From the NCBI GenBank assembly GCA_017959225.1, contig JAGDBD010000075.1, positions 1 to 41,370 on the forward strand: a stretch of 41,370 nucleotides of DNA. The letters are read 5' to 3'. Of this stretch, positions 674 to 9,417 are shown piece after piece (within the stretch, counting starts at the first letter, position 1; each line of letters begins with the position of its first letter). Origin of the DNA: Fibrobacter sp. Its GTDB lineage: Bacteria > Fibrobacterota > Fibrobacteria > Fibrobacterales > Fibrobacteraceae. The position numbers and the translations under genes are program-made. The notes beneath the pieces are model-generated. The model was not told where the DNA came from and ran no database searches. It saw only the letters and a list, made by a program, of their open reading frames with translations.

Positions 674-3600
674 TTAGTAGACAAAACCCACCGAGCGGCG
701 AACGCCCCAGACGTTTTCTGAAGTTTTCTTGAGCACGCGATTGCCAACGAGCATTCGCACATCCAAGCGAACCACATAGGCGCCCGTTCCAACGAGACGT
801 CCTTCACTACTGCGCATATTCCAAGCGAGGAACAGAGCCTTATCACCCGTTGTGCAATCTCCACTGAAGATCGCATCCGAGCAGCGGATCGTTCCTTGGG
901 CCGAATTCACATATTCGCCGAGATTGGTGAAGTAGTAGTTTTCATAGTGAATTTCAATGTCGTCCACCGTGTACGGTGTTTCACCGTCTTCCAAATGAGC
1001 GTTCACATCTTCCAACGCGCCAAGGATTCCATCAAAGGAAACCAGCTGACCGTGGCGACCATATTCCTTCGAAATCTGTTCCGCAGAAGATCCTGCTTTC
1101 ACAGGGATCGTTTCCACCGTCGGAGATTTTTCAGCAGGCGCCGTTTCCGGAGAAAGCGTTACGAGTTCTGTAGCGGCCACAGCCACAGCGCCACCGCCCG
1201 TGATGCGAATCCACGGATTATTATCATGCGGTGTATTGTGCGACATGTCCATGGCAAGGTTCGGAACAAAACGAACGCTATCGCCCGATTCCGGAGCATC
1301 GCCAGCGAGGACATGGAAATAGAGCTGCACGCGGTCCGGAGCGACACGGACACTGTAACTAGCTTCTACGACGCCCGTTTGCAAAGCGCCCGAGCGCCAG
1401 CGTCTAAATTCAAAGGCCTGCGGAAGATCCACCTTTTGGCTATCGGAAAGACCTTCACTGATGCTAATCGTTAACGTGGAAATGTCATCTTCCACAGAAA
1501 GAGATGCACCAGTAAGAATTGGACCTACACGGTCTTCCAAGACACCGTCCAAACGGAACGGATCCCCTTCATAGGTGTAATGGGCAGAAATGCTTCCACC
1601 GTAGGCGGAAGAAGAAAGTCCCGTGAAAATTCCAGAGGTAAAAGCATCGCGGACAAGGCTCACCGTTACGTCATTTTCCCGTTCAAATGCGCCGAACGTA
1701 CTGGATGCGGAATCGCGGAATACCCACTGGAGAGAATCCGGAGCATCTTCCCCATCCGGAGCAGAAGAGAATCGCACGACGAGGCTATCACCGATACCGT
1801 CACCGTCCTGGTCGTACATGCCCGCCATTTCGATCTTCGGAACAGGAGGTTCCTTAAGCGTAATGCCACTCCACACAAGAAGGTTCACCACCGCCGAAGC
1901 CTGGACCATGAACGAAGCGTTTTCAACTTCTTCGAGAGCCATCACGTAGAACATAGCGTGGCCCTTTTCCATGACCACGGAAGTGACGCGGCTACCGTCA
2001 GAATTCACAAACACAAGGTTCGCATTGGAGCTGTTCAAGAACAGGTCCGTTGTAAGCAACGTATCGTAAGTCAAAGTGATGTAGACCGGATACATGATGC
2101 CAGCCCATTCCCCGAGCTTCGTCGTATCGGCATCGATTTCGTTGTACTTGGAATCCGCAAAAGCAATCGACACGTCCGGAACATCGATTTCCGGTTCCGG
2201 AATGGTGAACGTCATCGTTTTAGTCGCGGCTTCATTTGCTTGCGAAGTAAATTCAAAGGTGTACGTTCCCGGAACAAGGCCCGTGATTGCCGTCGTATCG
2301 ATGGAGAATCCGCTCATCGAAGAATTGATGGTGATGCCTCCGTAATAAGTACCCGCCGTGTCCAGGGAAAGGCCGCTGACCGGCAAGTTTCCGCCGTACA
2401 AGCGGAAGAAGGAAGCCGCCGGTTCATCTTCTGCCGTTGCGGAATAATCGCAAGAAAGTCCCGTTGTTTTGATGTTTTGCCAAATCGTATAAGATTTGCC
2501 GCCCGATGTGGAGGTGTAGTCACGCATACTGTAGTACTTGATGGACGTGTGAAGATCCATGGAAGTACGCATGCGGAAATTACTTTCGCTCTGTTTGCGT
2601 TCTGCGTAGAACATGTCAAAGCTATAGGTTTCACCCGGAGTGAGCCTCATCGTGTCCAGGTTCACAGCGCCAGCCTGCTGATCGTGAACACCTCCGATGT
2701 CCACAGCCAAGCGGTTATCGATAAACACCCATACGTCATCGTCTCCGTAGAAGTCAAAGTATTGACCTTCCACGTAGGTGAATTCCGCATGCACCTTCAT
2801 CGTGAAACCAAAGTTGTGATAGCCACCGCTACCGCTCAAATTGTCGAAGTAGGGATTCTTGATCGAAAGGTCATCGTCTAAGTATTCGAAGTCGTCCAGA
2901 AGGAACGCGCCTCCGCTATTGCATCCCTTGCAATCGGTCGTCGTATAATCCTTGTTGATCTGTCCAAGCCAAAGTCCGGTGGTATCTTCGAGGATGATCG
3001 TAATGTCTCGGCACGTCGCATTCGTATAGATGACTTCATCTTTTACGGCAAGCGTATCCGGAAGGAACCAATGATTGATATGGTCAGAGGCTTTGCAGTT
3101 TGCAGGGAAATTTTCGTCATTGCGCACCGGGAGACCGTTAGAACCGAGCGTGGACTTTACCATGCCCTTGGTCAACTGGTTGCAATTGTTGTTAGTCGCA
3201 TTGTTATCGTGTTTACCGAAGTCCTTGCTAGTTCCCGTATCAGCTGCCGTATTTCCGCCCGAGCCGTCCAACCAGTCGTACAGCGTCACAGAAAGCTTGC
3301 GGGACGGGCAGTCTCCCAAAACCTTGGGGTACGCAGAATACAGAACAGGAAGACCGCTCTTGGTGTTGATCCAAATGGTATTGCTGATGTCAGCAATGCT
3401 ATCCAATGCGATTTGAGCACCTTCCGTAGCGCCCGCAGCCGTAAAGACTTCCGGTCCAACAGTCTGGATGAAGATAACGTCCATGTAGTCCGCAGAAAGA
3501 GTGGCTTCGTACCAGTCGCAGGTATCTACAACCGCTTTCATTTTTAGCGTGTCCCGTGCACCGTTATAAACGATACTCGGGGTTGTACTTGTCCACGGTG

Positions 3601-4075
3601 AAAGGAAGCGGACCTTCTTTGCGTTAGAAAGCATTTCGGACGAAGAAGACCTGATTGGGATAACGATACCGGTAGATGACGAAGACTTTGCCGAAGACGA
3701 AGACCTTGCCGAGCTCACAGAACTTGATGACGCCTCGGCGGTTCCGGTTGTCGCCGAAACGGCTCCGGATTCATCGACGGTCAAATAGACGACGCTTGCC
3801 GTTGCCACAGATGCCAGAGCATAGGATTCCGAATACTCCGAACGGCTGTAAACCGTCACGGTTTTGTTTCCACCGATGGAATTATTGTAGGTTACGGTAT
3901 AGTAACCGTTCGCATCTTGAGTTAAAGTGTATGTTCGCGAGCTTCCCGAAAAAACAAGAAACAGGCCATTTTCGGCGTCCCAAGATTCAGGAACCGACAC
4001 ATAAAAAGTCACAGCGCCAAAGGCTGAAGAAAGGGCCATCAAGGCAAACGCCCAGACCCATACACACGATCTCAT
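674..4075 (-). CDS. Secreted fibro-slime domain protein
   Basis: This 1133-residue surface protein starts with a signal peptide (residues 1-20). An N-terminal beta-rich stretch is followed by a Ser-rich linker (about 112-145) and a fibro-slime domain at about 365-510, recognised by GDDDVWVFIDN, DIGGVHDQQ and the MFYAER-type ending. Fibro-slime domains are PA14-like beta modules abundant in Fibrobacter and often proposed to act in adhesion to plant fibre; the ligand here is unknown. The middle is a series of Ig-like segments. The last ~90 residues contain a W...SSEGRLVGTGAYVVRLDV pattern like FlgD-type or type IX secretion C-terminal domains. The start at 4075 has AGGAG eight bases upstream. 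It is a single-gene unit with its own terminator. Confidence 0.88.
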   Translation of the reverse strand: MRSCVWVWAFALMALSSAFGAVTFYVSVPESWDAENGLFLVFSGSSRTYTLTQDANGYYTVTYNNSIGGNKTVTVYSRSEYSESYALASVATASVVYLTVDESGAVSATTGTAEASSSSVSSARSSSSAKSSSSTGIVIPIRSSSSEMLSNAKKVRFLSPWTSTTPSIVYNGARDTLKMKAVVDTCDWYEATLSADYMDVIFIQTVGPEVFTAAGATEGAQIALDSIADISNTIWINTKSGLPVLYSAYPKVLGDCPSRKLSVTLYDWLDGSGGNTAADTGTSKDFGKHDNNATNNNCNQLTKGMVKSTLGSNGLPVRNDENFPANCKASDHINHWFLPDTLAVKDEVIYTNATCRDITIILEDTTGLWLGQINKDYTTTDCKGCNSGGAFLLDDFEYLDDDLSIKNPYFDNLSGSGGYHNFGFTMKVHAEFTYVEGQYFDFYGDDDVWVFIDNRLAVDIGGVHDQQAGAVNLDTMRLTPGETYSFDMFYAERKQSESNFRMRTSMDLHTSIKYYSMRDYTSTSGGKSYTIWQNIKTTGLSCDYSATAEDEPAASFFRLYGGNLPVSGLSLDTAGTYYGGITINSSMSGFSIDTTAITGLVPGTYTFEFTSQANEAATKTMTFTIPEPEIDVPDVSIAFADSKYNEIDADTTKLGEWAGIMYPVYITLTYDTLLTTDLFLNSSNANLVFVNSDGSRVTSVVMEKGHAMFYVMALEEVENASFMVQASAVVNLLVWSGITLKEPPVPKIEMAGMYDQDGDGIGDSLVVRFSSAPDGEDAPDSLQWVFRDSASSTFGAFERENDVTVSLVRDAFTSGIFTGLSSSAYGGSISAHYTYEGDPFRLDGVLEDRVGPILTGASLSVEDDISTLTISISEGLSDSQKVDLPQAFEFRRWRSGALQTGVVEASYSVRVAPDRVQLYFHVLAGDAPESGDSVRFVPNLAMDMSHNTPHDNNPWIRITGGGAVAVAATELVTLSPETAPAEKSPTVETIPVKAGSSAEQISKEYGRHGQLVSFDGILGALEDVNAHLEDGETPYTVDDIEIHYENYYFTNLGEYVNSAQGTIRCSDAIFSGDCTTGDKALFLAWNMRSSEGRLVGTGAYVVRLDVRMLVGNRVLKKTSENVWGVRRSVGFVY
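3675..3710 (-). repeat. Two tandem 18-base units in the Ser-rich linker
   Basis: Two adjacent 18-base units (3675-3692 and 3693-3710) match at 16 of 18 bases and encode Ala-Lys/Arg-Ser4 blocks of the linker. The unit length is a multiple of three, so gain or loss of copies would change linker length without breaking the frame. Confidence 0.75.
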
Positions 4076-4315: not shown

Positions 4316-5083
4316 TTAGACAAACAAATCCCGAATCAAAACCACCGCCATCACGATGCTTGCAACCGAAATAAACCTTTTGATAAAAACATTCCCCTTT
4401 TTCCGCTGCAGACGACTGCCCAAAAGACCGCCGAGCATGGAACCAGCCGAAACGCAAATAGCAAGTCCCCATTCCACTTTACCTATCACAATCAGACCGA
4501 TGGTACTGACAAGCAAAAAGGTGGATGTCAACGCGTTCTTGATGGCATTCACGTGCAGAAGGTCAAGCCCGGTGTAGCGGGAAAGGGCAAATATTTGGAC
4601 AAAGCCCACTCCCACTTGAATAATACAACCGTAAATCGATACCGCCAAAAAGCCGAAAAACGCCGGAAGGGAAAGTTTTTGGGGAGGCGTTGCAGGAGGC
4701 TTTCCCAGAAAATCCCGTTTCAACTGCCCCATGATCACGACCAGTAGAATCGCCAAGGAGAGAATTCCCTGGAAAACTTTATCGTTCAAGCGGATCAAAA
4801 AGAAAACTCCCACCAAGGATCCGATGAAAGTCGGAATCAACAAGTTGAAGTAGATTTTTCGATGGAGAAGCCCATGGCGGAACAAGTTGATTGCAGACGT
4901 CGTGTTCCCGATGAAAAGTCCAATCCGGTTGGTACCGTTTGCAACCGTTGGCAGTAAACCGAGAAATATCATGATGGGAAGGCTGATTGTGCTTCCGCCG
5001 CCCGCAATGCTGTTGATGGCACTCGTCAAAATGCCGACAAGAAAAAAGGCGACGTATAAATACCATTCATATCCGAGAATCAC
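4316..5083 (-). CDS. TauE/SafE family membrane permease
   Basis: This 255-residue integral membrane protein of the TauE/SafE (DUF81) family has the family's N-terminal signature SAIAGGGS-like (here SIAGGGSTISLP, near residue 25) and about seven to eight hydrophobic segments. A second half-repeat has the GGLLGSRL signature near residue 225. Family members are proposed exporters of sulfite, sulfoacetate or other small anions; the substrate here cannot be read from sequence. Translation starts at GTG, and GTGA overlaps the stop codon of the upstream lipoprotein by four bases, so the two are probably translationally coupled. A link to cell-wall synthesis is only suggested by the operon. Confidence 0.85.
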   Translation of the reverse strand: MILGYEWYLYVAFFLVGILTSAINSIAGGGSTISLPIMIFLGLLPTVANGTNRIGLFIGNTTSAINLFRHGLLHRKIYFNLLIPTFIGSLVGVFFLIRLNDKVFQGILSLAILLVVIMGQLKRDFLGKPPATPPQKLSLPAFFGFLAVSIYGCIIQVGVGFVQIFALSRYTGLDLLHVNAIKNALTSTFLLVSTIGLIVIGKVEWGLAICVSAGSMLGGLLGSRLQRKKGNVFIKRFISVASIVMAVVLIRDLFV

Positions 5084-6243
5084 TTGGCAAGTTCCATTTG
5101 TAAGAATTGTTTGTTCGAAAGGACCGTGGCTCGTTCTTTATAATCCGGAGCAAATTCTAGACAAGCGTCCAGTTCGGCGATAGCCTTGGAAAGTTTATCG
5201 GACTTGTTTGCCTTTTTATTTTTGGACTCCGCAAAGAGCGCCGCTGCGAGCTTACGCTTTTCGGTGCAGAAACGGGTATTCAAAGAATCCAATTCCCGTA
5301 AGGATTCTCCACGGAGATGACTGGATTTGAGTTTTTGGAGAGCTTCTTTTGCCGCTTGCCATTTATTGCTTGCGGAAAGCTGTTTCGCTTCTTCTAGCGC
5401 TTTTTTAGGATCGTGAGACTGCCAAAATTCTGCGGAGGCAGAAGTCTCGATGCGCAAAGAGGAAATTTTTAGCACCGCGTTTTGAAGTTCTAGAGTGTCG
5501 ATGAAATCGGAATAGCGCAGAATAAGATCGGAAAGTTTTTGTTCCGCTGCATCGAAGGCGGCCTTTTCACGGGCGAGAAGAAGAGCTTCGTCTCGAACCA
5601 TTTTCACTTTTTCATAAGTACGGACGTAAGCGATTTTTGAAAGGGAATCGGTCAAATGGCGAATGGAATCGCTGGGCGACGTGGCAAAGATCGTGTCAAC
5701 GATGGGTTTCACTTCCGAATAGGGAGCGCGACGGGAATTCGCATTGACCAAAGCGATCAAATACCGTTGCAGATCTGCATCTTTTTTGGAATATCCACTG
5801 CGGACTTTTTCGCTGATGGACTTTGCTTGGACTTGCCATTCCTTCCACAAAGGGTTGAGCACAGAAAAACGTTCGACGATAGCTGCGGCAGAATCCAGTT
5901 CCCCTGCAGCATAAAAAGAGTCCGCCCGAGTCAGCGCCATTTGTGCAAGGCGCGGAATTTCCACGTAGATGTCCGGAATTTCTTCCGCTTCGATTTTTTG
6001 CGCAACCGGTTCTGAGTCTTGAACTTTTACCGGTTCACTGGCCGGAGCGTCGTCCTTTGCAAAGGCACTCGGAACTACCGGGCGAAAGACTTCCGAATTT
6101 TCTTTAAGAGTCGAATCTTTTGCAACCGGAGACGGTTCCGTGGGAGGTTCTAAAGCGGAGGAAGGCTGTGGAGAAGTTCCCACGCAAGCAGTCAAAAAAA
6201 ACGAAGCGATTCCTGTGAACGCAAGAATGTGCAAAGGTTTCAT
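5080..6243 (-). CDS. Lipoprotein encoded with a class A PBP
   Basis: This 387-residue protein has a lipoprotein signal peptide with lipobox LTAC (Cys about residue 20). A Pro/Ser/Glu-rich linker (about 22-85) follows, then a long, mostly helical, charged region with TPR-like spacing (for example ADSFYAAGELDSAAAIVERF). I do not recognise a named domain. It begins three bases after the stop of the PBP gene (GGGAG upstream) and overlaps the permease start. A lipidated, helical-repeat protein coupled to a class A PBP recalls LpoA of E. coli, the outer-membrane activator of PBP1a; no sequence similarity to LpoA was established, so a PBP-activator role is inference. Confidence 0.8.
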   Translation of the reverse strand: MKPLHILAFTGIASFFLTACVGTSPQPSSALEPPTEPSPVAKDSTLKENSEVFRPVVPSAFAKDDAPASEPVKVQDSEPVAQKIEAEEIPDIYVEIPRLAQMALTRADSFYAAGELDSAAAIVERFSVLNPLWKEWQVQAKSISEKVRSGYSKKDADLQRYLIALVNANSRRAPYSEVKPIVDTIFATSPSDSIRHLTDSLSKIAYVRTYEKVKMVRDEALLLAREKAAFDAAEQKLSDLILRYSDFIDTLELQNAVLKISSLRIETSASAEFWQSHDPKKALEEAKQLSASNKWQAAKEALQKLKSSHLRGESLRELDSLNTRFCTEKRKLAAALFAESKNKKANKSDKLSKAIAELDACLEFAPDYKERATVLSNKQFLQMELAK

Positions 6244-6246
6244 CGG

Positions 6247-9200
6247 TTAAAATTCTCCCGGTTCAATAGGAATGAAAGCATTGTCGCCGGTAAAGTCAGC
6301 AGGCAATTCAAATTCTTCGTCTTGTGTTTTCGGAGCGGAAGTTTCTGGAGGTTGCAAAGCTTCCGGTGCAAAGCTCGGCATCGAAAGGGACGTGACTATT
6401 CCCGAATTTGCAGCGGATGCCGCCGCAGTTTCCACTTGAGCAGGCGACGTATAGCCCGGAACATCTAGCAGAGGGATGGATCGAACCGTTTCGTTTGCAG
6501 AATAAACCGGAAGACCGGTGACCGGATTCACTTGAACTTCTCCACGTTCCGTTCCAAGGCGCAACGGAATCGTTCCCTTTGCAAGCATCGAAATGTCGAG
6601 GAAGTCCACTTTTGCATTTTCCTTGCGCACTTCCACCACTTTTTTTGCGAATTCCGCCCATTGCGGAAGACCACCCGAAGATCCTGCGATACGTGTTCTG
6701 CCGGATTTTAACGGACGGTTGTCATCAAAGCCCACATAGCTGCCGATTGCTATCACCGAGTCGAGACCAAAGCCGTTCTTCGTTGGTACAAATGTCGGGA
6801 TCGCTCCAAGGAAAGCCACATTGCGGTAATCGTTTGTGGTGCCGGTCTTTCCAAGCGCCGGGTAAAGAAGCGTATTTTCACCGGACGGAGACTGCATGGT
6901 AAGACTCTTGTACTGGCTATAAGCTGTACCGTACTGGAATACCGCATGGAGCATGACCGCCATCTGTTCCGTGACCGTATCCGAAAGGACTTTTTTCACT
7001 TCCACGGAATTTTCAAAAATGCGACGGCCATCCCGGTCGCGGATTTCTTTGACAAGGCAAGGTTCATTCCATTCGCCATCTGCGCACTTATAAACGTTTC
7101 CCGTTAAAAGCGTCTGGTACGCAGTCGTCATTTCGGAAAGCGGAATTTCGTTTACGCCCAAAGGCATGCTCAACACTTCTCGGAGTTTTCCGTGAATGCC
7201 GATTTCACCGGCGAACCTTGCAAAGGCTGCCATGGCAACAGAACGGCGGAAATCCGGCCAATAAAAGAGTTCTTCCGATTTCGAATAGTCTACGTCTTCG
7301 CGGGGAATTCCCATCATTCCATTTAAGCGGCGAATATCCGAAAGATTCAAATTCGGGTAAACTTCTTCGTCCGCAAGAGTCGTCGGAGCCAAAGGCTCTT
7401 CCGGATTTGAAGCCTTTAAATCGCGGTCTTTAAGGATTGCCAAATAGCGCAAGAAGTTGTGGTTGAATTCGGCAAAGTATTCCTTTTGAATTTTTTGGTA
7501 CTTCTTTTTCCCGAATTCCACGTTGCGACCGTAGAACATGTTGCGCACGGCCCGAGCCGCAGCCGGTCGATTTTCATAAAGGAGCTTTTCGTACAACGCT
7601 TTTTGCGCCTTGGAAAATTCAATTTCCTGCTTGGCGGTTTCGTTCAAATACAAGCCGTGTTTATCCCGCAAACGTTTGCGGTAATCGTCGAAAGATTCGT
7701 CGTCCCGTTTAAGGTAGCCGTTTTCGGCAGCCACCGCCATGAATTCTTCGGCAGAAAGTTTATCCAGCAAATGGTCCAAAAGCCAGATACTTGCGATGTT
7801 TTCCGAGCGGACTGCCGCCCAAAGAATGCTGACCGTTTCGCCCTTGTTCTTGTGATCGGGGCGCGGAAAATAAAAGTCATTTTCGTACTGGAACAGGTTG
7901 AATTCGTTCTCAAGTTCGTCAAGATAGTGCCAGTGATAATTCAACGCAGCCGCATACAGGAGAGGCTTCCAGCTAGAACCGAGCTGTCTCTTCGCTTTGA
8001 AGGATCTGTCGTAACCCGTATTGTGGAAACCGGCCTGGCTCGCCACGACTTCTCCGTTCTGAAGCGCGACCAGCGCACCCTGCAAAACCGGTTCCGTTTC
8101 GATTAAACACGGAACAGCTCCGTCCACTTTAACCGTATCCTTTACACTGACAAGTAAAACGGATCCTTTTGCAAGGCGCGGAGCAAGTACCGTTTTGACG
8201 TCGGCATTCATCTGCTTGCCGAGATCGGCAAGGTCCGCAGCGCTAACATGACCGTGCAGCTGTCCAAAGGAAAGGAAAATGTCTGCCAAATTTCCGTTGC
8301 CGTCATAGCGTACCGAATCGACTGCGCCGTACAAATAATCCCCGGCTCGTGCAAATGCTGCGCGGTTCGGAAGATCGGACTTCGGAAGTACGAAGCCGCC
8401 AAGCTTCACTTGAAGGTTTGAAATGTTATCCTGAACAGCCCGTTTAGCGGCCATCTGGTAATCCGCATCCATGGTCGTCACAATCTGAAGCTGAGCTTTT
8501 CGCCAGTCCGGAATGCCTTCTTTCTCAAAAAGACCCTGGTAAAAATCAGATTCGAATTTTTCTTCCAAGCGGGAAAGCTGGGTCGAAAGCGCAAAGCGGA
8601 AATTACCATGGTTAAATTCCAAAGGCTTCGCCAAGGCGGAATCCATCTGCTCCTGCGTAATGTACTCTTCATCGACCATGCGACCGAGGACGTAATTCAA
8701 ACGCGCTTTTCCACGTTCTAAAGCACGGTCTCTGCGCTGCTGGTTCCGCTGAATAAAGGGATCGTAATTGAACGGTCCTTTGACCGAACCTGCGATAAAG
8801 GCGCATTCCGCAAGTGTCAAATCTTTAAGATCTTTATTGAAGAAATATTGGGCAGCAATCGCAACGCCTTTTCCCGTTCCGGAGACGTGGAACTGGTTCA
8901 GGTAAAATTCCAGAATTTCTTCTTTGGAAAAGTGTTTTTCCATGCGAAGGGCATTGATCAATTCCTTCCACTTCGCTTTGACGCTCCGTTCTTCTCGTCC
9001 ATAAATGTTTTTGACCGTCTGCTGGGTCAGCGTGGAACCGCCCTGCTGTAAACGGCCCGCTCGGATGTTATTCACCATGGCACGGGAAAAACCCGTAATG
9101 TCGAAACCGCTGTGTTCAAAGTAACGGGAGTCTTCTGCCGCCACCAGAGCGTTTACAATGTTTTCCGGAATTTCACCAAAGGGAACGTAAATTCGGTGGT

Positions 9201-9417
9201 TCACATCGAAAAAAGAGCCCAATAGCCGTACCCCGTCGCGGTAATACACCCGGGATTCCCCCGAAAGTTCCGAAAGAATGTATCGACGGTTAAAAATTCC
9301 GTCCGGATCCTTTTCCGGCAGAACGCGGAATACGACTATATATAAAGGAATCAGGCAAAGAAGCCCGACAATGCAAAAAGCAACTGCGATTTTTAAGAGA
9401 GTCTTCAAGAATTTCAT
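6247..9417 (-). CDS. Class A penicillin-binding protein (glycosyltransferase/transpeptidase)
   Basis: This bifunctional peptidoglycan synthase has 1056 residues. An N-terminal membrane anchor (about 7-30) is followed by a GT51 glycosyltransferase domain with catalytic Glu in AAEDSRYF (about 92) and GGSTLTQQ (about 130). The transpeptidase domain has all three motifs: SSWK (nucleophile Ser about 482), SEN (about 538) and KTG (about 857). The distance from SEN to KTG is near 320 residues, much longer than usual in the family, because of a charged helical insertion at about 550-700. The C-terminal 100 residues are Pro/Glu/Ala-rich. It is first in an operon with the lipoprotein and permease genes. 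Which PBP1 subtype it belongs to is left open. Confidence 0.93.
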   Translation of the reverse strand: MKFLKTLLKIAVAFCIVGLLCLIPLYIVVFRVLPEKDPDGIFNRRYILSELSGESRVYYRDGVRLLGSFFDVNHRIYVPFGEIPENIVNALVAAEDSRYFEHSGFDITGFSRAMVNNIRAGRLQQGGSTLTQQTVKNIYGREERSVKAKWKELINALRMEKHFSKEEILEFYLNQFHVSGTGKGVAIAAQYFFNKDLKDLTLAECAFIAGSVKGPFNYDPFIQRNQQRRDRALERGKARLNYVLGRMVDEEYITQEQMDSALAKPLEFNHGNFRFALSTQLSRLEEKFESDFYQGLFEKEGIPDWRKAQLQIVTTMDADYQMAAKRAVQDNISNLQVKLGGFVLPKSDLPNRAAFARAGDYLYGAVDSVRYDGNGNLADIFLSFGQLHGHVSAADLADLGKQMNADVKTVLAPRLAKGSVLLVSVKDTVKVDGAVPCLIETEPVLQGALVALQNGEVVASQAGFHNTGYDRSFKAKRQLGSSWKPLLYAAALNYHWHYLDELENEFNLFQYENDFYFPRPDHKNKGETVSILWAAVRSENIASIWLLDHLLDKLSAEEFMAVAAENGYLKRDDESFDDYRKRLRDKHGLYLNETAKQEIEFSKAQKALYEKLLYENRPAAARAVRNMFYGRNVEFGKKKYQKIQKEYFAEFNHNFLRYLAILKDRDLKASNPEEPLAPTTLADEEVYPNLNLSDIRRLNGMMGIPREDVDYSKSEELFYWPDFRRSVAMAAFARFAGEIGIHGKLREVLSMPLGVNEIPLSEMTTAYQTLLTGNVYKCADGEWNEPCLVKEIRDRDGRRIFENSVEVKKVLSDTVTEQMAVMLHAVFQYGTAYSQYKSLTMQSPSGENTLLYPALGKTGTTNDYRNVAFLGAIPTFVPTKNGFGLDSVIAIGSYVGFDDNRPLKSGRTRIAGSSGGLPQWAEFAKKVVEVRKENAKVDFLDISMLAKGTIPLRLGTERGEVQVNPVTGLPVYSANETVRSIPLLDVPGYTSPAQVETAAASAANSGIVTSLSMPSFAPEALQPPETSAPKTQDEEFELPADFTGDNAFIPIEPGEF

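Follow-up and report, generated by a model that had tools for sequence, protein, structure and literature searches.

The window, i.e. the whole stretch of 41,370 nucleotides analysed here, lies on contig C65, part of a 2.43-Mb genome (G000) that is 91.5% complete. One relative, a Fibrobacter sp. MAG, was recovered by a single-sequence scan of genome contigs, a scan of low sensitivity. The locus comprises three genes on the minus strand, encoding a class A penicillin-binding protein (PBP), a lipoprotein and a permease, with the following features:

6247..9417, minus strand: class A PBP, PBP1A type, 1056 aa (transmembrane segment, GT51 domain, OB-like module, split transpeptidase and disordered tail)
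8677..9207, minus strand: GT51 glycosyltransferase domain of the PBP, residues 71-247 (Pfam PF00912, E 2e-54)
8098..8394, minus strand: interdomain module, residues 342-440, with OB-like strand order, positioned where PBP1A has its OB/ODD region
7966..7977, minus strand: transpeptidase SxxK motif, SSWK, residues 481-484
7318..7737, minus strand: part of a long insertion that separates SxN from KTG, residues 561-700
6841..6849, minus strand: transpeptidase KTG motif, residues 857-859
5080..6243, minus strand: TPR-like lipoprotein, 387 aa, conserved candidate partner of the PBP
6184..6243, minus strand: signal peptide and lipobox with predicted lipidated Cys20 (from sequence; C20 invariant in 59 rows)
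5971..6183, minus strand: Pro/Ser/Glu-rich disordered linker, residues 21-91, about 70 residues (pLDDT < 50 for 36-79; composition)
5083..5970, minus strand: helical-repeat body, residues 92-387, with C326, R330 and C361
4316..5083, minus strand: TauE/SafE permease, the third gene, a neighbour at family level only (Pfam 1e-37)

Both gene junctions are operon-like. The sequence-only reading had placed the lipoprotein three bases after the PBP stop codon, and indeed its ATG lies in frame behind the PBP TAA, separated from it by CCG; the GTG start of the permease gene shares 4 nt with the lipoprotein TGA. The motif GGGAG at 6255..6259 (minus strand), within the last codons of the PBP gene and 11 nt before the lipoprotein ATG, is a possible ribosome-binding site. 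Promoter-like sites (8 versus 4.4 expected) and terminator-like sites (11 versus 9.7 expected) were not used as evidence. The third gene product is, as had been proposed, of the TauE type, with no evident wall role. Just downstream of it, at positions 674-4075 of the window, a 1133-aa Fibro-slime domain protein is encoded (TIGR02148, 2e-41), and such a protein holds the same place in G142, G143 and G144.

The assignment of the first gene product to the class A PBPs held, as it combines a GT51 domain with a transpeptidase carrying the SxxK, SxN and KTG motifs (SSWK481, SEN538 and KTG857), the catalytic residues being invariant in 20/20 aligned relatives. The window PBP gave no Pfam transpeptidase match at E <= 1, and the transpeptidase model matches 10 of the 20 aligned relatives. 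NCBIfam PBP_1a_fam ranks first with 370.6 bits, and because this score is below the cut-off of 508.75, "PBP1A-type" denotes the nearest type and not a curated member. With VIA, the protein was aligned to PBP1a chains over up to 436 residues, versus at most 362 for PBP1b, and the profile of 20 relatives is colinear with the solved PBP1A structures 4oon, 3udf and 5u2g through the interdomain region. There, between the glycosyltransferase and transpeptidase domains, residues 342-440 are predicted to adopt the order strand-strand-strand-helix-helix-strand-strand (five strands, two helices), i.e. a predicted OB/ODD-like module whose likeness is one of position and OB-like strand order only. Its position equals that of the ODD region of E. 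coli PBP1A, at which, according to the accessible part of PMC3060616, LpoA docks. A UB2H match was found in none of the 20 PBPs examined. The spacing from SxN to KTG is 319 residues in the window PBP versus 126 in the other class A PBP of the genus; the insertion (561-700) is fast-evolving and was found in all PBPs read from the class. The GT51 proteins found in G000 number only two, the window PBP and one that is probably monofunctional; the genus's second class A PBP (773 aa) is missing, perhaps through an assembly gap.

All three elements ascribed to the lipoprotein, namely lipobox, linker and helical-repeat body, were recovered. The lipobox reads LTAC with Cys20, C326 and C361 are the only other cysteines, residues 36-79 have pLDDT below 50, and the structure prediction that had been called for gave an all-helical AlphaFold body (92-387) of eleven helices with pLDDT mostly 85-98. 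In an alignment of 59 relatives C20, C326 and R330 are invariant and C361 is conserved in at least 90%, while in a second, overlapping set that includes the short g4 forms and f2, C326, R330 and C361 are kept in 47/47. In the AlphaFold model the positions of C326 and C361 on the neighbouring helices 311-342 and 344-364 match in height, a placement suited to a disulfide, and a C326-C361 disulfide hairpin is therefore likely. The lipobox +2 position was read by the E. coli Lol rule, and no Asp occurs there in any of the 41 sequences, out of 47, for which a site was picked.

No curated family was found for the lipoprotein, PF04348 (LpoA) and PF13036 (LpoB) giving no match at E <= 1. TPR models are weak overall, the TPR_14 model matching 22/59 members at E <= 0.1, with 1e-6 as the best value. 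The best Foldseek match is BamD (E 5e-3, TM < 0.25) and the best VIA match has Z 10 at rmsd 18; such fold matches would reflect a common helical-repeat arrangement and give no family assignment. LpoP, LpoA and LpoB are absent from the best 50 Foldseek and VIA matches listed, which says little either way, and no LpoP chain appears among the PDB sequence matches at E <= 10.

Conservation of the pair across the phylum, proposed earlier as a check, was determined in 167 genomes, in which the best PBP E-values split into <= 1.3e-90 (n = 120) and >= 4e-41 (n = 47, one of them without any PBP match). With presence of the lipoprotein defined as a profile E <= 1e-8, it was found in 115/120 genomes with the PBP ortholog and in 0/47 without it, a near-perfect co-occurrence in genomes that are not independent of one another. 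Such co-inheritance would be expected of a PBP activator. It is itself not independent of linkage, because linked genes go missing together in assembly gaps. Contig ends account for three of the five misses, the PBP lying at a contig end in G121, G128 and G041, and the start of the lipoprotein being visible at the ends in G041 and G121. For the remaining two, G056 (g4) and G146, the lipoprotein was not found at E <= 1e-8 with no contig end as cause; in G146 the PBP is directly followed by TauE. The proposal thus all but withstood the search for PBP genomes lacking the partner, by which it could have been overturned: only G146 and G056 are left unexplained at this threshold, and 11 further g2/g4 genomes hold a trimmed, unlinked copy.

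The lipoprotein gene lies within 3.2 kb downstream of the PBP gene on the same strand in 96/115 genomes, across families f1-f4, and since the same order recurs in so many of the genomes with both genes, the adjacency is beyond chance. At six of the junctions read, PBP and lipoprotein genes share exactly 4 nt. In the other 19/115 the lipoprotein is encoded elsewhere (8 g6 and 11 g2/g4 genomes); in G127, one of the eight, it stays with TauE and not with the PBP. For five class A PBPs of ordinary type, encoded outside this class, the stretch read contained no lipoprotein homolog. TauE follows in 20/34 f1 loci and in 0/13 loci of other families (L081-L093), and therefore looks like a younger neighbour.

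We then considered where the two proteins might meet. The PBPs of the g2/g4 clade (support 1.0) fill only 1-33 of the 99 positions of the OB-like module and have thus lost it, and ~106 residues are missing from the centre of the lipoprotein, which is no longer linked to the PBP. In this single clade the pattern looks like a coupled loss of module and lipoprotein centre. In f2, however, the module is lost (3 of 99 positions) and the lipoprotein is nonetheless adjacent with its central part; in G161/G162 the central part is reduced and the module present; and in G146 the module is present and the lipoprotein absent. As these cases run counter to the correlation, the module is at most a candidate docking site, and f2 and G146 led us to reject it as the sole one. 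A mirror-tree comparison over 58 family pairs gave a partial r of 0.73-0.76 for the PBP insertion 561-700 against the N-terminal half of the lipoprotein (92-204); for the OB-like module the values were slightly below zero. TauE, taken as a linked control, gave partial values of 0.40 (30 pairs) and 0.05 (15 g6 pairs), and an unlinked control lipoprotein, encoded beside an LpoB-like gene, 0.47-0.52 (50 pairs). With the latter included, the insertion/lipoprotein value dropped to 0.66 for all pairs, and within g6 to 0.37, or 0.01 when ranks were used. Because the unlinked control gave a similar pattern, no conclusion was drawn from the mirror-tree, and its signal was read as mostly a rate effect. 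A complex model, computed with AlphaFold as one read-through chain of PBP 300-1056 and lipoprotein from an 85-row alignment, reached a pTM of 0.70 with ~147 linker residues disordered; against our own rough expectation of ~0.6 if undocked and ~0.75 or more if docked, this is at most a lean towards docking.

Other candidate activators are encoded in the family. The window's own genome carries an LpoB-family lipoprotein (G000:C9:17399-17839; L149:1216-1977; PF13036 E 1e-45), which scores 108.1 bits against the NCBIfam LpoB cut-off of 110.55, and the LpoB family is over cut-off in 28/31 family genomes. The C9 gene is followed by that of a 476-aa TPR lipoprotein, itself conserved in 92/111 family genomes searched. 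An LpoA-like protein is over cut-off in 15/31 family genomes and was not found by profile search in the window's own genome. Such LpoA-like proteins of ~600 aa, with an LppC N-terminal part and Peripla_BP_6, occur at L147:880-2658 and in 19 other genomes, outside Proteobacteria; the one read (L147) carries a signal peptide but no lipobox, and is a better match to Peripla_BP_6. In G144, a single contig, neither an LpoB-family nor an LpoA-like gene adjoins this PBP. The LpoB-like and LpoA-like proteins may instead be the true activators of this PBP. In 3 of the 4 g4 loci read (L097:6408-6935, L099:6628-7122 and L095:3886-4482), a conserved small lipoprotein with an LRPLAP motif is encoded after the unlinked short one.

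Taking these results together, we give an even chance to the lipoprotein being the cognate outer-membrane partner, probably an activator, of the co-encoded PBP1A-type synthase. The protein would be exported, lipidated at Cys20 and sorted to the outer membrane; its disordered linker would let the TPR-like body cross the wall mesh and touch the inner-membrane PBP on its periplasmic side; and this contact would, by analogy with LpoA, LpoB and LpoP, raise (or gate) the glycan-polymerising and cross-linking activities of the PBP. In favour of a partner are co-occurrence, linkage, architecture, the lack of a +2 Asp, the OB-like module at the ODD position and, weakly, the pTM of 0.70. Against it stand the 8 g6 genomes with the genes apart, f2 without the module, G146 without the lipoprotein, the rival LpoB- and LpoA-like genes and a mirror-tree without a clean specific signal.

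The same body would also suit an NlpI-like TPR scaffold bringing hydrolases or other envelope proteins to the PBP with its catalysis unchanged, and NlpI and LapB do figure in the weak Foldseek list; in the conserved neighbourhood, however, no hydrolase gene was noted, and the PBP accompanies the lipoprotein in four families; we regard a scaffold as rather unlikely. That the two genes are merely co-expressed, the lipoprotein doing an unrelated envelope job from a shared transcript, would suit the linkage in f1 of TauE, itself without evident wall role (20/34 loci), and the retention of an unlinked lipoprotein in g2/g4 and the 8 g6 genomes. Outside f1, however, TauE is gone (0/13 loci) and PBP and lipoprotein are still adjacent, in some cases overlapping, which makes co-expression alone quite unlikely. 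The sign of an effect is not given by sequence, and the same anatomy would serve a negative regulator, or a spacer or tether between outer membrane and synthase, holding the PBP; this we consider improbable, as the outer-membrane lipoproteins dedicated to class A PBPs that are described in the accessible parts of PMC7267771 and PMC3060616 stimulate them. A role in the assembly of outer-membrane proteins, as a paralog of BamD/YfiO, would account for the best weak matches (Pfam 0.002, NCBIfam 18.8 bits and a Foldseek E of 5e-3), but these fall far under the cut-offs of 25 bits and 81.4 bits (NCBIfam TIGR03302, 18.8 versus 81.4), the top Foldseek match has a TM of 0.16-0.24, the VIA rmsd is ~18, and a proper BamD is over cut-off at C5 of the same genome, as in 20/21 genomes searched; such a paralog is very improbable.

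The broader proposal, put forward tentatively and with less assurance than the partnership itself, is that an outer-membrane activator of a PBP1A-type synthase arose within Fibrobacteria themselves, without sequence relationship to LpoA, LpoB or LpoP. This would be one more independent origin, outside Proteobacteria, of outer-membrane control over wall synthases; the activator would be locked by a conserved disulfide hairpin, and its PBP combines an OB-like module with a transpeptidase insertion of ~190 residues. Fibrobacter degrade cellulose in the rumen and alter their envelope proteome on this substrate, according to the accessible portion of PMC6851124, which lists an LpoB/LptE-type lipoprotein and TPR lipoproteins but states no PBP link for them. 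A PBP1A/LpoA-type activator or TPR-peptidoglycan system of Fibrobacter was not found in the literature searched, mostly without subscription papers. The candidate is class-wide, co-inherited and operon-linked in a non-proteobacterial diderm lineage, and hence directly testable; if confirmed, outer-membrane control of class A PBPs would have arisen repeatedly.

As regards known systems, BamD/YfiO is likewise a TPR lipoprotein with weak local similarity, but the window lipoprotein scores far under its cut-offs and the true BamD is encoded elsewhere. Clade-restricted class A PBP cofactors have precedents in CofA and MacP, as far as the partial accounts of them go; to our knowledge, neither is an outer-membrane lipoprotein of this build. 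LpoB of E. coli shares the disordered tether, the outer-membrane anchoring and a paired class A PBP, PBP1B (PMC7267771, accessible part), but the body here is all helical, PF13036 does not match, and a separate LpoB-family gene exists at C9. The sequence-only reading had likened the lipoprotein to the general design of LpoA, the E. coli activator of PBP1A. Both indeed have TPR-like helices and are paired with a synthase of the PBP1A type in which an additional module, at the position where LpoA docks, separates GT from TP, on the partial evidence of PMC3060616 and PMC4111904; however, the PBP1A-binding half of LpoA has a periplasmic-binding-protein fold that is absent from the all-helical lipoprotein, and PF04348 gives no match. 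Of the lineage-specific activator proposed earlier, the pairing itself, its recurrence in four families, its lineage restriction and the fitting architecture stand, while the LpoA design does not, tether and TPR body being closer to LpoP. In P. aeruginosa, as the accessible text of PMC7267771 has it, LpoP-PBP1B unites an outer-membrane lipoprotein having a disordered N-terminal tether and a C-terminal TPR body with one dedicated class A PBP, and lipobox, disordered tether and TPR-like body all recur in the window lipoprotein. It differs in that the LpoP body has ~105 residues versus ~300 here, and in that the partner here is of the PBP1A type without a match to UB2H, a domain expected of an LpoP partner. 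The best reading is a Fibrobacteria-specific outer-membrane partner, probably an activator, of this PBP that has no sequence match to LpoP but is built like it.
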